Shown: piece by piece, positions 3,167 through 21,376 of the stretch
How positions within the stretch are numbered: the stretch's first letter is position 1
How the letters are laid out: each line of letters opens with the position of its first letter
IMG/VR virus record: IMGVR_UViG_3300010157_003426
Coordinates: 1-23,167 of that record
Reading direction: 5' to 3' (one strand)
Origin: a virus
Length of the DNA stretch: 23,167 bases
Notes under the pieces: model-generated
Databases searched by the model: none
Told to the model about the DNA's origin: nothing
The model's input: only the letters and a program-made list of their open reading frames with translations
Translations under genes and position numbers: made by a program

Positions 3167-3940
3167 ATGATTAAAAATATATTAATAACATTATGGTTGT
3201 TAACAAGTGTGGTGTTGGCCAATCCTATAGACGACAAATGCCCACAACACGCTTACAAAGGCGCACCAGTGAGTGCCATTAAATCAGATGACCAGTATCT
3301 ATGTAAAACTAATTATGCAATACATTATAGATATGACACAAGAACAGCAGAATATGTTGTTGAACATGTAACAAAACAATCTGTATCTGGTCATGCAAAA
3401 AGACAAGATGATTTTAGACCAGATCCTGAAATCAAAAAAGAACATCAATCATTATTATCTGATTATAAAGGCCACCCTTATGATAGAGGTCATTTAGCAC
3501 CTGCAGGTAATAATACTCAAAACGATAAGATTATGAGTGAAAGTTTTTTTCTTTCTAATATGGTGCCACAAGAACCAAACAATAACAGAGGTATTTGGAA
3601 ACAATTAGAAACTTTTATTAGAGAATGGTCATTAAAAGGAATGGACATCTATGTTGTAAGTGGAACTATTTACAGTAGAAATAGTAAAACAATAGGTGAT
3701 AATAAAGTAGGTGTACCTGATAAAATATGGAAAGTTATTATAGATAAGAATACAGGTGAATCTATTGCATTTATATTCCCCAATACAGCATTGCCTGTTG
3801 TTGACTTATTGAAGTATTCAACTAGTGTAAAAGCAGTAGAAGATGCTACAGCAATTAAATTCATGCCTGCATTGACAGATGAAAAGAGTAAGAACTCATT
3901 TAATATAGATCATTGGCCTGAATTACATTTAATGAAATAA
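3167..3940 (+). CDS. exported DNA/RNA non-specific endonuclease (DRGH family)
   Basis: This is a 257-residue nuclease of the Serratia NucA/EndA type (PF01223), a metal-dependent enzyme that cuts DNA and RNA without sequence preference. The catalytic DRGH is at residues 106-109 inside YDRGHLAPAGN, and the metal-site Asn is N131 in LSNMVPQ, followed by NNRGIW. Residues 1-18 are a signal peptide (hydrophobic core ILITLWLLTSVVLA), so it should act in the periplasm or outside, not on host chromosomal DNA during infection. Two Cys, near 25 and 46, could form a disulfide. It has its own host-type promoter, so it is likely early. Possible roles are nutrient scavenging, exclusion of incoming DNA, or host lysis clean-up. 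Confidence 0.9.
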   Translation: MIKNILITLWLLTSVVLANPIDDKCPQHAYKGAPVSAIKSDDQYLCKTNYAIHYRYDTRTAEYVVEHVTKQSVSGHAKRQDDFRPDPEIKKEHQSLLSDYKGHPYDRGHLAPAGNNTQNDKIMSESFFLSNMVPQEPNNNRGIWKQLETFIREWSLKGMDIYVVSGTIYSRNSKTIGDNKVGVPDKIWKVIIDKNTGESIAFIFPNTALPVVDLLKYSTSVKAVEDATAIKFMPALTDEKSKNSFNIDHWPELHLMK

Positions 3941-5192: not shown

Positions 5193-6827
5193 TTAAATTG
5201 CTATCGCAGGTGCATTTAAATTAATAAAAGAACGATCTTGATTTATAGGTGGCATACCCATCACAGTAGATTGATTAGTATTATTGACCACGTTATTAGG
5301 TGCAAGAACAACATTATTATTATCTCCTGCTTCTTTACCACTCATATTATCAACACTTAATTTATTTAAATCAACATTTTGTTTAGGTTTAGGTAAACCT
5401 TTTTTATCAGACAAAGGTTTTATAGTTTCAGGATTTGCAAGTAATGTGCCCATTGCAAGATCGCCATCCATTGCACCAGTCATACTAAAACCAGTTTGTT
5501 GGGTTTCTTCATTTACTTGATTTGCTAATTTCTTACCTTCTTCTGTTTTAGCAACGCCTGTAGCAGCAACAGTTGCAGCTGCACCTCCTACAGCAACACC
5601 ACCTGCAACCGCTGTTCCTGCACCTGCAGCTCCAACAGCAGTTTCTCCTGCACCAAATAACATTCTACCAATACTACCACCAATTCTACCTATTGCGCCC
5701 ATTATACTTGATACAGCACTTATTATAGTTGATATTAAACTCATTATCATAGAACCCAAAAATGCTAAAATAGGAATAATAGTTACTTTCATAATATTAC
5801 CAAAAATACCTGTACTTTTACCAGAACTTTCCGTTGTTTTTGTAAAAGAAGATAAACTAGAACCTAAACTTTTAAAACTACTACCAATACTACCTACAAA
5901 TCCAAAAGCAGATTTACCTACTCCAATTATACTTTTACCAAATCCAAATATCTCTTTACCCATTAAACGGAATTGATTATATGCGGCACCTATTGTTTGA
6001 GCAAAAGGCCCCTGTTCATTATCTCTGCCTGACAACATGCCAGCTTTTTCTTTTCTATCTTGTAATTTCTTTTGATCTTCTGTAAGTTGTTTTTCTTTAT
6101 TAATAAGTCTTTCTTGTGTTGTATCATGTATGAAATCTTTTCCTTTTGCTTCTTTTATTTCTCTATTTAATTGTTTTTCTTCTAATTTTAATCTTTTTTC
6201 TTCTGCTAATATTTGTAATTTTTCTATTCTTTCTTGTTCAAATGTTTTAATTTCTAATTTTTGATTTTTTTCATCAAGATAAGTATTGATACCACGTTCT
6301 CTTAATATATCTCTTTCTATTAGTAATTCTTTTTTCTTATTTTCTTTATCAATTTTATTTTTGTTATATAATTCTGATAGTCTATCAATACTTGAACTTA
6401 ATTCTTCACTGAAAGATTTGATATCCAAACCAACAGATTTCATAGCTTCAAGTTTTTCCATTCCTTTATCTTTATTTTCATCATCACTAGATTGTAATAG
6501 ACTTATTATATTTTTTAATTCAGATTCAATAGGTAAAAATTCTTTAAAAGCCGCTTGAGTTATATTGTTTATTTCACCAGTAACTGCTTTTAACATAGAT
6601 TTACCTAAATCAACTATTTCTTTTGTACCAATATTTTTATTTTGAGATTCAGCAAGTTTTTTAATTCCTTGGACAACTTCAAGATTATATTTTGGTAATG
6701 TTTGTTTTACTTCAACAACATCTTGTTGTGTAGCTTCTTGTTTGGCCTGCATTTTGTCAATCTTTTTAACAAATGTAGAACCTAATGCACCAACCAGTTT
6801 ATTTGAATCGTCTAAGAAATCGGCCAT
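5193..6827 (-). CDS. probable tail tape measure protein (gp29-like)
   Basis: This is a 544-residue protein. Residues 1-150 are helical. About 150-260 form a highly charged coiled coil (ERIEKLQILAEEKRLKLEEK). Residues 270-345 are Gly/Ser/Phe-rich, about 349-381 are a strong hydrophobic segment, and 398-424 are an Ala/Gly/Val-rich stretch. The C-terminus is Asn-rich. Long helix plus hydrophobic segments is the tape measure pattern, and the length is close to T4 gp29 (590). It ends the minus-strand tail block, downstream of gp54, gp26/gp51 and the holin-like gene; in lambda-like phages the tape measure also follows the frameshifted chaperone pair. The call rests on architecture and context, not on a motif. 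Confidence 0.55.
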   Translation of the reverse strand: MADFLDDSNKLVGALGSTFVKKIDKMQAKQEATQQDVVEVKQTLPKYNLEVVQGIKKLAESQNKNIGTKEIVDLGKSMLKAVTGEINNITQAAFKEFLPIESELKNIISLLQSSDDENKDKGMEKLEAMKSVGLDIKSFSEELSSSIDRLSELYNKNKIDKENKKKELLIERDILRERGINTYLDEKNQKLEIKTFEQERIEKLQILAEEKRLKLEEKQLNREIKEAKGKDFIHDTTQERLINKEKQLTEDQKKLQDRKEKAGMLSGRDNEQGPFAQTIGAAYNQFRLMGKEIFGFGKSIIGVGKSAFGFVGSIGSSFKSLGSSLSSFTKTTESSGKSTGIFGNIMKVTIIPILAFLGSMIMSLISTIISAVSSIMGAIGRIGGSIGRMLFGAGETAVGAAGAGTAVAGGVAVGGAAATVAATGVAKTEEGKKLANQVNEETQQTGFSMTGAMDGDLAMGTLLANPETIKPLSDKKGLPKPKQNVDLNKLSVDNMSGKEAGDNNNVVLAPNNVVNNTNQSTVMGMPPINQDRSFINLNAPAIAI

Positions 6828-6831
6828 TTAA

Positions 6832-7119
6832 TTATTTTGTTTCTTCTGTTAATGATTGACTATTTTCAGTATTAATCTTTTCTTTAGTACGACCGTACGA
6901 AGTAATACCTAATACAGCACCCATAGCAATATGAAAGAAACCCGCACCTTGTAATGTTAAAGGTGCCCATTGAGTAAATACTATATGTTTTAAATAAGTT
7001 GCTTGTGCTACATTCCATAAAATAGGAAACAACACAAAATCACATAAACAAACAAATAGATACAACCAACCCATAAGTGGTCGCCATAATCCTTTTATAT
7101 CTTCTTTATATTTACTCAT
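6832..7119 (-). CDS. holin-like membrane protein (3-TM gene-transfer-agent type)
   Basis: This 95-residue protein has hydrophobic stretches at about 14-36 and 55-75 with an amphipathic segment between. WRPLMGWLYLF near the start and GITSYGRTKEK at the end of the last span resemble the GTA_holin_3TM family (PF11351) seen in alphaproteobacterial phages and gene transfer agents. Such proteins open the inner membrane at lysis. It starts 3 bases after the gp51 frame stop and is followed after 4 bases by the tape measure gene, so it would be expressed late with virion genes. The ribosome site is GGGAGAAA. A structural membrane role is the alternative. Confidence 0.6.
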   Translation of the reverse strand: MSKYKEDIKGLWRPLMGWLYLFVCLCDFVLFPILWNVAQATYLKHIVFTQWAPLTLQGAGFFHIAMGAVLGITSYGRTKEKINTENSQSLTEETK

Positions 7120-7122
7120 TAC

Positions 7123-7305
7123 TTATTTCTCCCTTTGTTTTCTATCGTTTTCTTCTTTAATATAATTAACCAACAACGCAACATATATATCACGTTCCCA
7201 TGGCAACATATTTTCAATCTCAGTTAATGAATATTTATGATGTTGCATCAGCGCAAAATTGGTTTCAAAGTAGGCCTCTAGCGTATTGTGGGCGAGGCCA
7301 ATTCG
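7123..7305 (-). CDS. 51: gp51-like extension, expressed by -1 frameshift from gp26
   Basis: This 60-residue reading frame overlaps the 3' end of gp26 in the -1 frame and has no start codon before its Met-20. Its sequence (NFALMQHHKYSLTEIENMLP, then WERDIYVALLVNYIKEEND) resembles the baseplate hub assembly protein gp51 of T4-like marine phages. It begins right after a slippery TTTTTTC, so -1 slippage would give a 297-residue gp26-gp51 fusion (237 + 60). This copies the logic of lambda gpG/gpGT tail assembly chaperones. An internal start at Met-20 (7248) would give 41 residues, but has no ribosome site. Coordinates are those of the extension only. Confidence 0.8.
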   Translation of the reverse strand, partial: RIGLAHNTLEAYFETNFALMQHHKYSLTEIENMLPWERDIYVALLVNYIKEENDRKQREK

Positions 7306-7311
7306 AAAAAA
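7273..7311 (-). promoter_or_regulatory. -1 programmed frameshift signal (slippery site and stem)
   Basis: On the minus strand the gp26 codons GAT TTT TTC contain the heptamer T-TTT-TTC (7311-7305). After a 5-base spacer (GAATT), GGCCTC (7299-7294) can pair with GAGGCC (7278-7273) across a 15-base loop. The zero-frame stop TAG (7280-7278) lies in this element. Slip motif, frame order, spacing and stem all meet the usual rules for -1 frameshifting. Confidence 0.8.
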
Positions 7312-8015
7312 TCTGCTATTCCTGATAAAGTAACTTTATTTGTTACATTTGTTTTAGGGTTGATTACTTCAACATCATGTTTCAATTTAGGCATAGTTTC
7401 AAAGAATTTTTTAATTTTATTAAATGATTCTGGTGGTAAAGAATCAATAAATTCTTTTAATTCAGTTTTTGTGCTATCTTTTGCAGGATATATCTTTTCT
7501 CCTTCAAAAATATGATCAATACAATCTATTAAGATAGTAAATACTTTATCAATTTCTAATGTTTCTATACCTTTACCCACATCATAATTATTTAACGTAG
7601 GATATCTTAATACTAAACCCAAGTTTCTTTTTTCATCAACTATTATTTTATTAGTATGATCATCATCAACTTGAACTTCAACTTTAGTTAAATCAACTTC
7701 AGCTTCAGCATAAGTTTTACCATCATCAGGACATATAGTTTTAAATCTAGCAATCTCTGATACAGATTTTGCACGAATATTTAAAAAGATATACTCAACA
7801 TCAAATATTGGTAATTGTTCTATTTTTAATATATCAAATGTACAAGCATTAATAACTTCTTTTAAAGCATTAACCATTTGTTTATTATCACCTGTTTCAA
7901 GTGCTATAAACAGTATTTTTTCTTCTTTAACAAGAAATGGTCTGTATTTGATTTTTTTATCTTCTGATGGTAACGTCAATTCATACGTTGGCACATCAAC
8001 TCTTGGTAACGCCAT
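7278..8015 (-). CDS. 26: gp26-like baseplate hub / tail assembly chaperone
   Basis: This 245-residue protein carries the T4 gp26-type signature (PF12322 family as I recall it): PRVDVPTYELTLPS, KIKYRPFLVKEEKILFIAL, then CTFDILKIEQLPIFDVEYIF and LNIRAKSVSE. In T4, gp26 and gp51 are needed for hub assembly. The CPDDGK stretch retains a single Cys. The last nine residues (from 237 on) are replaced by the gp51-like 60 residues when ribosomes slip at TTTTTTC. The ribosome site AAGGAG lies 6 bases before the ATG. It follows gp54 by 17 bases. Confidence 0.8.
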   Translation of the reverse strand: MALPRVDVPTYELTLPSEDKKIKYRPFLVKEEKILFIALETGDNKQMVNALKEVINACTFDILKIEQLPIFDVEYIFLNIRAKSVSEIARFKTICPDDGKTYAEAEVDLTKVEVQVDDDHTNKIIVDEKRNLGLVLRYPTLNNYDVGKGIETLEIDKVFTILIDCIDHIFEGEKIYPAKDSTKTELKEFIDSLPPESFNKIKKFFETMPKLKHDVEVINPKTNVTNKVTLSGIADFFELASPTIR

Positions 8016-8032
8016 AATTAACTCCTTTTATA

Positions 8033-9034
8033 TTATAAATTAAGTGGTGGTAAACTGCCGAATGGAGGGAATACTCTACCACCTGTAATACCCCCAATTG
8101 GAATACGTCTTTTTAATCCTTCTAATACATCTATACCAGCACGTCTTAATTCTGGTGGTAGATTATTTAGAATGCCTCCAAAAGCACCATATCCACTTTT
8201 AACCGAAACATCTCTAAATGCTGGATTGCCTACAGTAATTTCACCTGCTTTATCTAAGAAGTAATTAATCCAATATCTAAATGTAAATGTAACTGTAAAT
8301 GTTTGAACAGCATTTGCTTCGTAATTGTATTCAACCGGTCCAATAATTTTAGGAAATACATCATACAATTGAACAGCATAAGTTATATCATCTCTTTCAT
8401 TACGACTTGCAAATTGCCCTAGTTGATAAATGTTAACATCAGATACATAATTATCATAAAAATTATAATTGTTAGATTGATTACTATAGATAGCCGATTG
8501 CCATAATTCAAAATAAGATCTTTCTCTTAAAAACTTATCACAATAGAATGTTGCTTGAATATCTGCTGATTTGTGGTCAAATGCAATCTTATATGCTGGC
8601 CCATGATGTCTAATTTCTTTTGTTTGTATGTCTCTATCAGGCATAGCAATAGCAGAACAGAATGCTCTCACTCTACGACCATTTGTTGTTTGTACGGAAT
8701 TCATTGTTGATGAATTTTTAAATGTAAGTTCTGATTCTTGTGTTGAATTTGAAATACCAACCTGACTTAAATCATCTATGCCTTGCAAACTACCCAATAA
8801 ACCACCTGAATTTCCTTTTGGTAAATTAAATTCAACATAAAATCTGGCTTTACGAGCAAATCCTTCTGCCTCATTAACATAAGATAGAAAACGGCCAATA
8901 GTAGTTTCTGGATTGGCACCTGCCTGGTGTCTAAAACGTGGATCTGATTCAACGTTGTCTAATGATCTATCTCTAGGAATACCTAATCTGATATCAAAAC
9001 CACCAATACGAACACCGCCTCTTAATATTGCCAT
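8033..9034 (-). CDS. 54: gp54-like baseplate-tail tube initiator
   Basis: This 333-residue virion protein has the tail-tube fold pattern in its middle: RVRAFCSAIAMPDRDIQTKE, then SYFELWQSAIY, the strand pair DDITYAVQLYDVFPKIIGPV and AVQTFTVTFTFRYW. This arrangement matches gp54 and gp19 of T4-like phages; the size (T4 gp54 is 320) and the presence of gp48 elsewhere favour gp54. It would sit on the baseplate hub and start tube polymerisation. It overlaps the preceding gene by one base. A divergent gp19-type tube protein is the alternative. Confidence 0.65.
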   Translation of the reverse strand: MAILRGGVRIGGFDIRLGIPRDRSLDNVESDPRFRHQAGANPETTIGRFLSYVNEAEGFARKARFYVEFNLPKGNSGGLLGSLQGIDDLSQVGISNSTQESELTFKNSSTMNSVQTTNGRRVRAFCSAIAMPDRDIQTKEIRHHGPAYKIAFDHKSADIQATFYCDKFLRERSYFELWQSAIYSNQSNNYNFYDNYVSDVNIYQLGQFASRNERDDITYAVQLYDVFPKIIGPVEYNYEANAVQTFTVTFTFRYWINYFLDKAGEITVGNPAFRDVSVKSGYGAFGGILNNLPPELRRAGIDVLEGLKRRIPIGGITGGRVFPPFGSLPPLNL

Positions 9035-13679: not shown

Positions 13680-13736
13680 ATGACGTATGTTGAAGTGTTA
13701 TTATCAGGCCATATAACGAAAGGCCGAAATGAATAA
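13680..13736 (+). CDS. 18-residue possible leader ORF for the gp5-like gene
   Basis: The ATG lies 10 bases after an AAAAAAGGAAA ribosome site, and the stop (TAA, 13734-13736) overlaps the start of the gp5-like gene at 13729. Ribosomes finishing this ORF could re-start on the spike gene, which has only a weak site of its own. The peptide itself (MTYVEVLLSGHITKGRNE) is unremarkable. The coupling role is inference. Confidence 0.3.
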   Translation: MTYVEVLLSGHITKGRNE

Positions 13737-14604
13737 CGATAATTATATGGGCCTAGGAGGTTTTTACTGGTTCACTGGTGTTGTTGAGGATAGAAACGAT
13801 CCTCTCAAAGTCGGCCGTGTAAAGGTAAGAATCATCGGAGCACACACATCCGATAAAACAATTCTGCCAACTGAAGATTTATTCTGGTCGTCTGTAATGT
13901 TACCAATTACGGCCAGTGGTATATCTGGGATTGGCCAGTCGGCGACCGGACTACTCGAAGGAAGTTGGGTGTTTGGTTTCTTTCGTGATGGCCAAAGAAG
14001 TCAAGATGCGGTTATATTAGGTAGTTTACCAGGAAGGCCAACACAGGGAGCAAATAGCTCACAGGGCTTTTTTGATCCTAATGGAGTTTATCCTCGTTAT
14101 ATAAATGAACCAGATACCAATCGTCTGGCCGTTAACAATGGTGAGAAACCACATCCAAGTCTAGCCACAGATGCGGCTTCTAGGGTTACAGGAATACAGG
14201 CCTATAATTCACAGTGGTCTCAGCCGGCCAGTACCTACGGAGCAATCTATCCATACAATCAAGTATATGAATCAGAGTCGGGTCATATAGTCGAGTTTGA
14301 TGACACTACAGATCACGAGAGAATACACATCCGCCATAGGTCTGGTACTCGCCTTGAAATCACGGCCAATGGCGACCAACTGGCCATTACCAAAGGCGAC
14401 AACTATATAATCATAGATGGTAATAACAAGGTCTATATAGCAGGTTCATCCGATATCACAGTAAATGGCAATGCAAACATAAGAGCGGCCGGTGATGTAG
14501 GTGTGCTGGCCAGTAATATAGACATAACGGCCACAGGCGATATCAACATGAACGCAGGCGGTGATGTAACCATTCAAGGTAACAGAATTGATCTAAACCC
14601 TTAG
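13729..14604 (+). CDS. 5: gp5-like baseplate central spike without lysozyme
   Basis: This 291-residue protein combines an N-terminal OB-fold (GFYWFTGVVEDRNDPLKVGR, VKVRIIGAHT, SWVFGFFRDG, DAVILGSLPG) with a C-terminal beta-helix made of short V/I-x-x repeats (DITVNGNANIRAAGD, VGVLASNIDITATGDINM, GGDVTIQGNRIDL). T4 gp5 has the same ends but a lysozyme domain between them (575 residues in total); that domain is missing here. It should form the needle under the gp27-like hub, capped by the PAAR protein at 21086. The base composition differs from its neighbours, with about sixteen GGCC tetramers in the gene. Confidence 0.8.
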   Translation: MNNDNYMGLGGFYWFTGVVEDRNDPLKVGRVKVRIIGAHTSDKTILPTEDLFWSSVMLPITASGISGIGQSATGLLEGSWVFGFFRDGQRSQDAVILGSLPGRPTQGANSSQGFFDPNGVYPRYINEPDTNRLAVNNGEKPHPSLATDAASRVTGIQAYNSQWSQPASTYGAIYPYNQVYESESGHIVEFDDTTDHERIHIRHRSGTRLEITANGDQLAITKGDNYIIIDGNNKVYIAGSSDITVNGNANIRAAGDVGVLASNIDITATGDINMNAGGDVTIQGNRIDLNP

Positions 14605-15662: not shown

Positions 15663-15995
15663 ATGTCCGATATCATTACATTAACAGAAAAAGCAAAGGC
15701 ACATTTAATTACACAGATGGCCATTCACAGAAAGAGTCATGTTTTTTTACAAGCTAAAGGTGGTGGTTGTGCCGGGTTTAAATATGATTGGTCTTTTCCT
15801 GATACAGTTGATTTAGACAGTAAAGATACTTACATTGTTTTAGATGAGAATTATAATTTAGTAATAGATCGTTATAGTGCGTTTAAATTAATAGGTATGA
15901 ATATTGATTATATTGAAAATATATCTGGTTCTACTTTAGAGATCAGTAATCCAAACGCTACATCTACATGTGGATGTGGTGAATCTTTTAGTTAA
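15663..15995 (+). CDS. A-type iron-sulfur cluster carrier (IscA/ErpA/HesB)
   Basis: This 110-residue protein is a complete A-type carrier, which accepts and hands on Fe-S clusters. The three cluster-binding cysteines are present: C36 in GGGCAGFKY, and C103 and C105 in STCGCGES. The length and the N-terminal ITLTEKAKAHL helix are typical. Such genes occur in T4-like marine phages and may keep host Fe-S enzymes active during infection. It sits between lipoprotein genes under the promoter at 15215 and next to two iron-dependent oxygenases, a possible iron theme. Confidence 0.9.
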   Translation: MSDIITLTEKAKAHLITQMAIHRKSHVFLQAKGGGCAGFKYDWSFPDTVDLDSKDTYIVLDENYNLVIDRYSAFKLIGMNIDYIENISGSTLEISNPNATSTCGCGESFS

Positions 15996-15996
15996 T

Positions 15997-16188
15997 ATGT
16001 TAAGACAATATCTTTATATTATTATATTATTGTTTTGTTTAGTAGGTTGTTCTAATGTAAGAATGGCCTGTACTGTTGATAATAATTTAAAGGCGATTAA
16101 AGATAATAAAGAGACCACACCTACAATCTCTGATAAAGCAAAAGATTGTGTTAATAATCCAACTGTAATTGTATTTAAAGAGTTTTAA
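15997..16188 (+). CDS. small lipoprotein (lipobox LVGC)
   Basis: This 63-residue protein begins at 15997, one base after the Fe-S carrier stop; the longer frame from 15970 would overlap that gene and hide the signal peptide. The N-terminus LRQYLYIIILLFCLVGC is a lipoprotein signal with the modified Cys at 18. The mature part has two more Cys, in RMACTVDN and DKAKDCVNN; the latter echoes the AKDC of the lipoprotein at 15419. It ends 4 bases inside the convergent oxygenase gene. Spanin or exclusion roles are possible. Confidence 0.65.
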   Translation: MLRQYLYIIILLFCLVGCSNVRMACTVDNNLKAIKDNKETTPTISDKAKDCVNNPTVIVFKEF

Positions 16189-16754
16189 GGATTGTTTGCT
16201 GACATAGGCACATCAAAGATAAAAGCAATACGTTCTGCTGGCCCTATATTTTCAGCCATGTGATTCTTCTTATTATCAAACCAAAAGAATACTCCTGGTT
16301 CTACTGTAATAATTTCTTTAGTGGTATCGTCATCGCCATCGTCCCAAACTGTATAACGATATAGGCCTTTAATTGATAAATGATAACGATCTTTAGTTGA
16401 ATAATAATTACCTTGATCAATATGTTTACCTGTAATTTTACCTGCAGGTGTATTTAAAAAAGCACAACGGCCTACTTTTAATGATTTAGATGCTAACCAT
16501 TGTTGAATTGCAATATGTCTTTTAGTTGCATCTGTTGGTACACAAATTTCTGTATCACCAATAAATTCTTCTGGTTTAGAAATACCACCCATAACTAATT
16601 GAAGTACATCTGCTGTTACAAGTTTACTATGAGGGTCTTGACGATCAACACCTTTTAAGCGACTAGCATTACCCCAATCTTCTGGGTATTGTTCTAACTG
16701 TTCACGTATTTTAGATACGTCTATATTTTTTTCAATAATACGAATATTCTTCAT
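16185..16754 (-). CDS. 2OG-Fe(II) oxygenase, Asp/Asn hydroxylase type
   Basis: This 189-residue enzyme has the facial triad of 2-oxoglutarate dioxygenases: H111 and D113 in GKHIDQG and H165 in NKKNHMAEN, with R175 in AERIAFIFD as the likely 2OG-binding Arg. The strands YHLSIKGLYRYTVWD and PGVFFWFDN resemble the aspartyl/asparaginyl beta-hydroxylase fold (PF05118). The substrate is unknown. The ATG at 16754 was chosen because the upstream ATG at 16766 is within the -10 box. The -35 box of its promoter overlaps the stop of the other oxygenase gene. Confidence 0.8.
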   Translation of the reverse strand: MKNIRIIEKNIDVSKIREQLEQYPEDWGNASRLKGVDRQDPHSKLVTADVLQLVMGGISKPEEFIGDTEICVPTDATKRHIAIQQWLASKSLKVGRCAFLNTPAGKITGKHIDQGNYYSTKDRYHLSIKGLYRYTVWDDGDDDTTKEIITVEPGVFFWFDNKKNHMAENIGPAERIAFIFDVPMSANNP

Positions 16755-16764
16755 GTATAGTTCC

Positions 16765-16793
16765 ATAATATACTTATTTGTTCATATTGTCAA
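16765..16793 (-). promoter_or_regulatory. sigma70-type promoter for the oxygenase gene
   Basis: On the minus strand TTGACA (16793-16788) and TATTAT (16770-16765) are 17 bp apart. The ATG at 16754 lies 10 bases after the -10 box, leaving a leader of about 4 bases. Confidence 0.75.
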
Positions 16794-17326
16794 GCTGTTT
16801 TATCTAATGATGGTACGTTATAATCAAATGTCATTACACGTCTATTTACATTATCAGTATTAATATTACCTTTATGCTTAAACGCATCACTTACATTTAA
16901 CATGAACAAATCACCTTTCTTAGGAAATAGATTAAATTCTTCTGTTGCAGTTTTAATATCAAAACCGTTATTATGTTCTTTAGTATCATCTAGGTATAAA
17001 TTAAAAACTAAAGATATATTTAAAAATGCCCAAGTATCTCTATCATCATGCCATTTGCGAGCTTTAACATGACAACCATTTACGGCCAATTTACGTAGAT
17101 TTGTATAATTAGAACCAAAAAAACTTACATATCGTTGTTCTATCAATAAACGAAATTCGTCTATTATAGGAAGTATTCTTACATCATTATTATAAACATA
17201 ATCATCTGGTTGATTGTCAGCCTTAATGAAGTTATAATTATCGTAATTATATTTAAATGCTTCTGTAAATGGCAGTATAATATAACCATTAATATAAAAA
17301 TTATTTAAATCTTTAGTTGTCAACAT
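16790..17326 (-). CDS. 2OG-Fe(II) oxygenase, second type
   Basis: This 178-residue protein has H93 and D95 in RKWHDDRDTW, the distal H151 in AFKHKGN and R162/R163 in NRRVMTFDY, the order expected for a 2OG-Fe(II) dioxygenase. NISLVFNLYLDD and LFPKKGDLFMLNV form the core strands. It differs clearly from its neighbour and is closer to the phytanoyl/prolyl hydroxylase-like proteins common in T4-like marine phages. The substrate is unknown; protein or nucleotide hydroxylation are options. A late-type promoter lies 7 bases before its ATG. Confidence 0.75.
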   Translation of the reverse strand: MLTTKDLNNFYINGYIILPFTEAFKYNYDNYNFIKADNQPDDYVYNNDVRILPIIDEFRLLIEQRYVSFFGSNYTNLRKLAVNGCHVKARKWHDDRDTWAFLNISLVFNLYLDDTKEHNNGFDIKTATEEFNLFPKKGDLFMLNVSDAFKHKGNINTDNVNRRVMTFDYNVPSLDKTA

Positions 17327-18086: not shown

Positions 18087-18245
18087 ATGTACACACACAG
18101 ACAGAACGAGCCTCAGTATAATGCAGGCAATTTCCAAGAATATGATTACGAATTAGAATGGATTGAATGTTCTTGGAATATCACATATAAACAAATTGAA
18201 TTAGTAACTGCTTTTTTTTATCCTTGGATTAGAAATTCTGTCTAA
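18087..18245 (+). CDS. 52-residue hypothetical protein
   Basis: This small, acidic, aromatic-rich protein (QYNAGNFQEYDYELEWIECSW) has no membrane segment. It starts 4 bases after the microprotein stop, with a late-promoter-like GATAAATA at 18074-18081 just upstream. Its 3' end overlaps the TonB receptor gene on the other strand by 17 bases. No family is recognised. Confidence 0.5.
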   Translation: MYTHRQNEPQYNAGNFQEYDYELEWIECSWNITYKQIELVTAFFYPWIRNSV

Positions 18246-19968
18246 ATCCTATTAGAAAATTTCTACCCAATTGAGAATAACCATCGGGTCTTTGATAAGT
18301 TTTATCGGTAATATTATTTAATTTACCATAAAGAATTGTATTACCTAAAGTGTAATCAGCACTTAAATCAAATGTACTTACAGCAGGCATAATTTTATTA
18401 TTATAAGTTACGCTATCAACATCTATATGAGAACCATAATAATTCCAATTTGCTTTTAAAGATGTATTTTGAATTTTATTATATGATGCTTCTAAATTGT
18501 TTACCCATTTAGGACGTCTTGTTAATTCATTACCTGAACTATCTTCAGCAATTAAAAATGTATTTGAGTTTTTAAAATCTATAACAGATATATTATAATT
18601 TAATTTTGTTTCAATACCTTTTCTTGTACTTATTCCAGTATCATTTACATAGGTGTTGTTTTTATAAACAAATAAATGTTTTATATCACTTTGAAATAGT
18701 GCAATGTCTATAATTTTGTTTTTGTAACCTACTTCGTATGTATTACTTTCTTCTGGTATCAATTTTGAATTACCTAAAAATCCATAATTGTCTTTACCGT
18801 ACATTTCATACAACGTAGGCATTTTATAACCTGTTGATACACTTGTTCTAAATCCATTATAGTATGCACCAACTCTTTCAGTTAATTGATTATCAAAATT
18901 ACTAGGCATATCATAACGGCCCCCTGCTGTTACAAAAAAATCATCAGATAAAAATTTGATTGCATTAGTATAATAGGCATGATTTTCTCTTTTTTTATCT
19001 ACTGAAGAAACATAATCATCTATGTTAGTATCAAATTTACCATGAGTGAATGTATGTTCTGAACCTACACTAATATCAGCAAACGTATGAATAGTTGTTT
19101 TGGTTAATAATGTTTTGTTATTACTATCGTAAGTATCTTTAACACCATTTTTATTATAATCTCTATTATGATCGGTATTATTAATCGTTAATTCATTATC
19201 TTTATTTTGTAATGATAGATATTGATTTGAAAATTTATATAAACCTGTATAGTTACGAGTATCTTCTCCTAAGCCATCTAAATTAGTATGATTAGTTTGA
19301 TTAATAAAATTTGATTTTAAATTGTAACCGCTATCTAATAGTGATTGAGTTTGAAATGTATAGTTTCTAAAATGATATGGATCTTTTTCAGAACCATTAG
19401 GATAAACACTTATATTTTTACTACTTTCATTTTCACCTTGAAAATCTATTATAGTTTTGCCTATTGTTTGTCCTAATTTAATTTTTTCATTCCATGTATT
19501 GTTAGAACCGTAAGATAGATCAATCCAATTTTTATCATTTGGTTGTGTTACCATATTAACAACTCCACCAATTGCATCTGGTCCGTAGATACTACTCATT
19601 GGACCTTTTATAATTTCTAATGATGAAACTCCAGAAAAACTATGTTGAGTTAGATCATCGCTGCCCGTAGGTGTACTAGCATCTTTAATAGGAATACCGT
19701 TTAAAGTAAATAATGTATGATTAGAATTTGTACCACGAGTAAAGGTACTACTAAATTGTTGTTTAGGTCCGCTTTGAATTATATTTAAACTTGATGATGA
19801 TTTTATATCATTTGGTTCTATAACGTCATAAGAATATGTTAATGGAAGATGTTCCTCCGCCGTTCTAAATGCTTGTATTGTAATTTGTGGAATATTTTCG
19901 TAAGTGTATTGTGAATACGAAGTATTAGTTACTAATATGAATAATAGTAATTTAATGAATAAGCGCAT
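18229..19968 (-). CDS. TonB-dependent outer-membrane receptor, BtuB-like
   Basis: This 579-residue protein has a signal peptide (residues 1-19, cut near SYS), a possible TonB box (about 26-33) and a plug domain that follows BtuB closely: QQFSSTFTRGTNSNHTLFTL, NGIPIKDASTPTGSDDLTQ, IIKGPMSSIYGPDAIGGVVN. The rest alternates strands and loops like a 22-strand barrel and ends in a terminal Phe, the outer-membrane assembly signal. E. coli BtuB is 614 residues and imports cobalamin. Finding an intact receptor in a phage genome is unusual. It ends an operon of small, mostly membrane, proteins. Roles could be nutrient uptake for the infected cell or replacing or masking a receptor. Cobalamin is only the closest guess. 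Confidence 0.88.
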   Translation of the reverse strand: MRLFIKLLLFILVTNTSYSQYTYENIPQITIQAFRTAEEHLPLTYSYDVIEPNDIKSSSSLNIIQSGPKQQFSSTFTRGTNSNHTLFTLNGIPIKDASTPTGSDDLTQHSFSGVSSLEIIKGPMSSIYGPDAIGGVVNMVTQPNDKNWIDLSYGSNNTWNEKIKLGQTIGKTIIDFQGENESSKNISVYPNGSEKDPYHFRNYTFQTQSLLDSGYNLKSNFINQTNHTNLDGLGEDTRNYTGLYKFSNQYLSLQNKDNELTINNTDHNRDYNKNGVKDTYDSNNKTLLTKTTIHTFADISVGSEHTFTHGKFDTNIDDYVSSVDKKRENHAYYTNAIKFLSDDFFVTAGGRYDMPSNFDNQLTERVGAYYNGFRTSVSTGYKMPTLYEMYGKDNYGFLGNSKLIPEESNTYEVGYKNKIIDIALFQSDIKHLFVYKNNTYVNDTGISTRKGIETKLNYNISVIDFKNSNTFLIAEDSSGNELTRRPKWVNNLEASYNKIQNTSLKANWNYYGSHIDVDSVTYNNKIMPAVSTFDLSADYTLGNTILYGKLNNITDKTYQRPDGYSQLGRNFLIGFRQNF

Positions 19969-21085: not shown

Positions 21086-21376
21086 ATGCCGGGAATTGTT
21101 AGAGTAGAATTAGACAAACATATCGGGCATGCTAAGGCAAAAGTTCCATATCATCAGACTCCTTACAAAATAGGATCAGAAAATGTATTTGTAAATGGAA
21201 AATCTGCTGTTAGAATTGGTGATTTATGTGCTTGTAAAGATCCTGCGTCAGAAGGAAGTGAAACTGTGTTTATAAATGGCATAGGTGTTCATAGAGAAGG
21301 CGATGCAACTGCTGGTCACGAAGGATATGCACCAACTAAAGCATCTACAGGTTCAACAAACGTATTTGCAGGATAA
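21086..21376 (+). CDS. PAAR-repeat spike tip protein
   Basis: This 96-residue protein has the PAAR pattern twice: ENVFVNGKSAVRIGDLCACK and ETVFINGIGVHREGDATAGH, with His and Cys residues (H14, H23, C48, C50, H78 by count) that could coordinate the metal at the tip. Such proteins sharpen the gp5 spike (T4 gp5.4) and pierce the outer membrane. The gene lies about 6.5 kb from the spike gene at 13729, next to fibre genes. Length is typical for phage PAAR proteins. Confidence 0.85.
   Translation: MPGIVRVELDKHIGHAKAKVPYHQTPYKIGSENVFVNGKSAVRIGDLCACKDPASEGSETVFINGIGVHREGDATAGHEGYAPTKASTGSTNVFAG

Follow-up and report, generated by a model that had tools for sequence, protein, structure and literature searches.

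The window analysed here is the whole stretch of 23,167 nt formed by positions 1 to 23,167 of the IMG/VR virus record IMGVR_UViG_3300010157_003426, and the locus under study occupies positions 7123-8015 on its minus strand, in what is best explained as the genome of a T4-like (Kyanoviridae-related) phage. The zero frame of the locus encodes a gp26-like protein of 245 residues (7278-8015, minus strand, with a TAG stop at 7280-7278), a putative short tail assembly chaperone (TAC-N), which is a member of PF12322 (T4_baseplate; E 1.5e-61, 208 bits, gathering cutoff 24.5) and matches phrog_150 in a profile search (E 1.5e-67). Upstream of it, on the same strand, lies the gene for a gp54/tail-tube-like protein (8033-9034; phrog_45 tail tube, E 1e-39). 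On the other side, also on the minus strand, a small membrane/holin-like ORF (6832-7119), whose match to PF11351 (E 2.7e-4) is below the gathering score, separates the chaperone gene from a tape-measure-like gene, a 544-aa ORF (5193-6827) assigned to the tape measure position by synteny.

A second coding segment (7123-7335, minus strand) overlaps the end of gp26 in the −1 frame, which is bounded upstream by a TAA at 7338-7336 and stays open from 7335 to a stop at 7125-7123. The segment encodes a gp51-like C-terminal domain (TAC-C), which belongs to the gp51 family phrog_634 (E 1.2e-29, residues 8-68) and also matches phrog_150 near its C-terminus (229-277 of 282, E 4.7e-7), meaning that the phrog_150 profile already contains the extension. 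Counted from the conserved Phe-Phe, the gp51 frame has no ATG before residue 22, and its first in-frame ATG (7248-7246) falls within the conserved domain; an earlier note on this DNA was thus right in describing a gp51-like segment that lacks a start codon and lies in the −1 frame of gp26. The lengths given there were reproduced on recomputation from the sequence: a slip after codon 237 adds 60 residues and gives a 297-residue fusion beside the 245-residue gp26, the predicted slip-site peptide in the window being ...VTLSGIADFF/RIGLAHNTLEAYF....

Inside the overlap stands T-TTT-TTC (7305-7311, minus strand, read from 7311 to 7305), a heptamer of the X-XXY-YYZ type placed in the register of a −1 programmed ribosomal frameshift. 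Its conservation was followed in 160 loci from two IMG/VR scans, the second of which was queried with gp26 only and therefore carried no junction bias; the window and one isolate are counted, along with the relatives, among the 160 sequences with both parts. The alignment of gp26/gp51 junctions in related phages, which the earlier note had suggested, showed for every one of them (160/160) that gp51 follows in the −1 register and that the overlap holds a T6 run in slip register, and all 79 usable loci of the gp26-only scan read TTTTTTC or TTTTTTT in slip register. A search with a diverse gp51 alignment gave nothing usable, the alignment being too divergent, and additional scans that used the gp26 of Rhizobium and of Vibrio phages as queries returned one and two loci, respectively.

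Chance does not account for the motif: T-TTT-TTN occurs in slip register at 0.18% of the other gp26 codon positions and at the junction in 106/106 distinct contexts. The first Phe codon of the junction is TTT in all 106, while the second is TTC in 90; elsewhere in gp26, TTC accounts for 14% of the Phe codons, and 2 of 115 Phe-Phe pairs read TTT TTC. An arginine codon read in the −1 frame partly dictates this preference for TTC, which therefore points to dual use and not to slipping alone.

The heptamer is followed, after a spacer of 5 nt (GAATT), by a 6-bp hairpin whose 5′ arm GGCCTC (7294-7299, minus strand) is separated by a 15-nt loop from the 3′ arm GAGGCC (7273-7278, minus strand). Heptamer, spacer and stem were all located where the earlier note had placed them, so that in the window a 3′ RNA structure is present within the range of 5-9 nt. 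The further claim that the zero-frame stop falls inside the stem holds only in part: the codon straddles the border between loop and stem, with its last base, G, paired and the rest unpaired. The fold of a 46-nt segment of the window reaches -11.1 kcal/mol (z -2.5), whereas that of a 61-nt segment has a z of only -0.96. All five core pairs are formed in 60/106 distinct contexts and are incomplete or missing in the other 46. The stem GCCTC/GAGGC is kept in each of the 56 contexts with a GAGGC 3′ arm, and four contexts have GCCTG/CAGGC, probably a compensatory change from one event; overall, arm pairing amounts to 76%, against 24-50% for shifted arms. The hairpin is real in the clade of the window, but lineage-specific and not a general part of the signal, and it is not essential in the family, given the contexts in which it is incomplete or missing. 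A universal hairpin was rejected on the same 46/106 contexts; other lineages lack it. An upstream Shine-Dalgarno-like sequence is commoner in contexts without the hairpin (30/46) than in those with it (17/60; Fisher p 1.8e-4, relatedness ignored). A conceivable, though rather doubtful, reading is that T4-like phages share an unchanging slippery site and differ in the stimulator, which would be a hairpin of 5-6 bp in one lineage and an upstream Shine-Dalgarno-like sequence together with an immediate stop in others; if true, the frameshift rate would be maintained through exchangeable signals.

Down to about 25% identity, isolates of distant lineages retain both the −1 register and a slippery site rich in T. 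This was found in the Kyanoviridae isolates P-SSM2, HTVC008M, Melnitz, ACG-2014e and BUCT-ZZ01, in Emdodecavirus phiM19, Schizotequatrovirus phi-ST2, Menderavirus Marzo and Chakrabartyvirus pf16, as well as in Pootjesviridae RHph_I1_9 and AF3 and in the Aeromonas phages Ahp1 and P19. In Pseudoalteromonas phage XG4, which is unannotated, the gp51 domain likewise lies in the −1 frame.

In T4, gp26 and gp51 are two divergent genes. The N-terminal part of T4 gp51 is a gp26-like domain (PF12322, residues 1-201, E 3.9e-52) and its C-terminal part a gp51 domain (phrog_634, 147-246, E 1.2e-23), with which the −1 segment of the window can be aligned by eye; with this domain make-up, the predicted fusion product is present in T4 as one gene. 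The two T4 genes are paralogues, gp26 corresponding to the short form and gp51 to the long fused form. To treat the T4 proteins simply as separate genes is accordingly incomplete, since the short and the fused gene are copies related to each other. In an unrooted tree of the shared domain, the frameshift phages are separated from the T4-type copies (95/92) and the gp51 copies form one clade (100/100). The test neither establishes nor rules out that the T4-type gp26 copies are monophyletic (p-AU 0.35). The frameshift arrangement also occurs within Straboviridae (phi-ST2, P19), and because of this the split T4 form is most simply regarded as derived by duplication, although the tree does not itself give the direction. 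In phage RB43, the two copies stand in tandem on one strand in the order 51 then 26, both matching PF12322; this tandem may be an intermediate stage of the duplication observed in T4.

The order tail tube, gp26, gp51, small membrane ORF and long ORF corresponds in outline to the V, G, GT, H order of lambda genes. For the position of the locus between tail tube and tape measure genes, the tail tube side is clear, while on the tape measure side the window offers position only: its 544-aa ORF had no family match in Pfam and PHROG searches. The positional counterpart of this ORF in HTVC008M is annotated as a putative tail tape measure (phrog_58, E 8.4e-12), and the counterparts in phiM19 and phi-ST2 have weak matches to tape measure families. 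According to PMC3004832, which lists T4 gp26 as well as T4 gp51 among the hub assembly chaperones, gp51 is required for assembly but does not occur in the particle. AlphaFold gave a confident model of gp26 (pLDDT 85) and, for the C-domain, a helical one; the gp26 model has no match with E < 0.001 in the PDB, solved tail chaperone folds included, and sequence searches with both parts found no solved relatives. The gp26 model does match viral gp26-like models in BFVD. Some of these gp26-like folds come from outside the T4-like groups, e.g., SP-15, phiRSL1 and a siphovirus, and the gp26 type of chaperone may, as far as models go, be wider than described.

Taken as a whole, the locus is very probably one tail assembly chaperone gene that gives a short gp26 and, by a −1 frameshift, a long gp26-gp51 fusion, in a manner similar to lambda G/GT. 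Standard decoding would produce the 245-aa short form (TAC-N); a part of the ribosomes, with TTT and TTC occupied by tRNA-Phe, would slip back one base at T-TTT-TTC, assisted in the clade of the window by the downstream hairpin, and would continue through the gp51 segment to yield the 297-residue long form (TAC-NC). If lambda gpG/gpGT is taken as the model, the short form may coat the tape measure protein, and the rarer long form may recruit tail tube subunits through its C-terminal helical domain; the likeness is meant as "works like", with no homology to gpG claimed. The proposals of a frameshift fusion, of a likeness to gpG/gpGT and of a chaperone role thus find support in comparative evidence, namely the register, the slippery motif, the −1-frame selection described below, the synteny and the T4 paralogy; slippage itself, its rate and the chaperone function are inferred.

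A gp51 made as a separate small protein from the internal ATG (7248), with the overlap and the T run being incidental, would agree with those of the examined GenBank records that annotate gp51, all of which assign it an independent short ORF with its own start; in no annotated record examined is this ORF joined to that of gp26. The annotated starts, however, vary from one phage to another and often remove the conserved first helix, the ATG 7248-7246 of the window has no visible Shine-Dalgarno sequence, and T4 retains the domain only as the extension of a second gp26 copy. Moreover, selection was assessed in 49 contexts in which the gp26 stop comes right after the slip, using the non-overlapping stretch from this stop to the first shared ATG: the −1 frame has a pN/pS of 0.25 there, against values above 1 for both alternative frames, and stops are found in 0/49 contexts in the −1 frame against 44/49 and 48/49 in the others, a pattern of conserved −1-frame coding without a start of its own. 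Since purifying selection on the codons ahead of the first shared ATG is thus confined to the −1 frame, this comparison argues strongly against initiation at the annotated gp51 starts as the sole route; an independent start was rejected on this ground, and a separate gp51 is very improbable.

A fusion could also arise by transcriptional slippage on the T run instead of ribosomal frameshifting, as a run of 6-8 T might make the RNA polymerase slip and some relatives do have T7 or T8; most of them, however, have precisely six T and then a C, placed as tandem tRNA slippage requires, and the suitably spaced hairpin, with its one compensatory change, is in keeping with a stimulator that acts on the ribosome, which leaves little likelihood for slippage at the level of transcription. 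As for one continuous gene split by a sequencing or assembly error, single-base indels in homopolymers are indeed a common type of error, but the same −1 junction is conserved in independent assemblies and in finished isolate genomes from several families; this explanation was therefore rejected and is practically excluded. Programmed −1 ribosomal frameshifting thus stays the preferred reading of the locus.

Compared with known systems, the candidate frameshift shares with lambda gpG/gpGT, reportedly described by Xu, Hendrix and Duda in 2004, a late −1 slip just before the tape measure gene and the pairing of a short with a rarer extended chaperone, but no sequence relation was found and the heptamer is T-TTT-TTC in the window and G-GGA-AAG in lambda. 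With T4 it shares homology, of gp26 to the short form and of gp51 to the full fused form, the difference being that T4 has two divergent genes and no need for a frameshift. The abstract of a 2022 study by Vladimirov, Gautam and Davidson is said to name T4 genes 26 and 51 and to report frameshifting conserved in several T4-like groups. As related in PMC10885494 and PMC12846349, this study (Virology 566:9-15, doi 10.1016/j.virol.2021.11.003) identified the tail chaperones of T4-like phages; citing it, the PRFect paper describes one short and one fused copy in some T4-like phages (PMC10885494), and a second paper poly-T slippery sequences in T4-like TAC-N genes (PMC12846349). On these accounts, the window exhibits a short/long scheme already known from its own phage group. 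In Vandenendeviridae and Andersonviridae, which are phage families different from that of the window, a myovirus tail chaperone gene likewise has a conserved −1 frameshift, its motif being GTTTTT (PMC12846349).

As far as the cited accounts extend, the proposal of the earlier note is correct, its main idea is already published and the locus in the window is itself new; it is unlikely that the study of 2022 covered this uncultured phage, and the conservation and compensatory change of the hairpin may be details beyond it. The gain made here is one of confirmation and detail. Most of the records examined label gp26 and gp51 as baseplate hub protein and hub assembly catalyst, and let gp51 begin at an internal start that is arbitrary; recognition of the frameshift would correct the annotation in very many genomes of marine and other T4-like phages. 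The same scheme would explain why the essential T4 gp51, described as of unknown function, resembles gp26 with an added C-terminal domain.

Other genes of the window were noted in passing. A TonB-dependent receptor gene (18229-19968, minus strand; barrel E 6.8e-26, plug E 4e-13), an unusual cargo for a phage, has relatives with 40-100% identity on 16 IMG/VR contigs of up to 69 kb, and its possible roles include receptor decoy, uptake gene and superinfection exclusion. A DNA/RNA non-specific endonuclease (3167-3940, plus strand; PF01223, E 2.5e-48) has an N-terminus resembling a signal peptide. An A-type iron-sulphur cluster carrier (15663-15995, plus strand; PF01521, E 3.1e-14) is found near two oxygenase-like ORFs with weak matches (16185-17326), and a PAAR-repeat spike tip protein (21086-21376, plus strand; PF05488, E 1.1e-14) is encoded far from the gp5-like gene (13729-14604).
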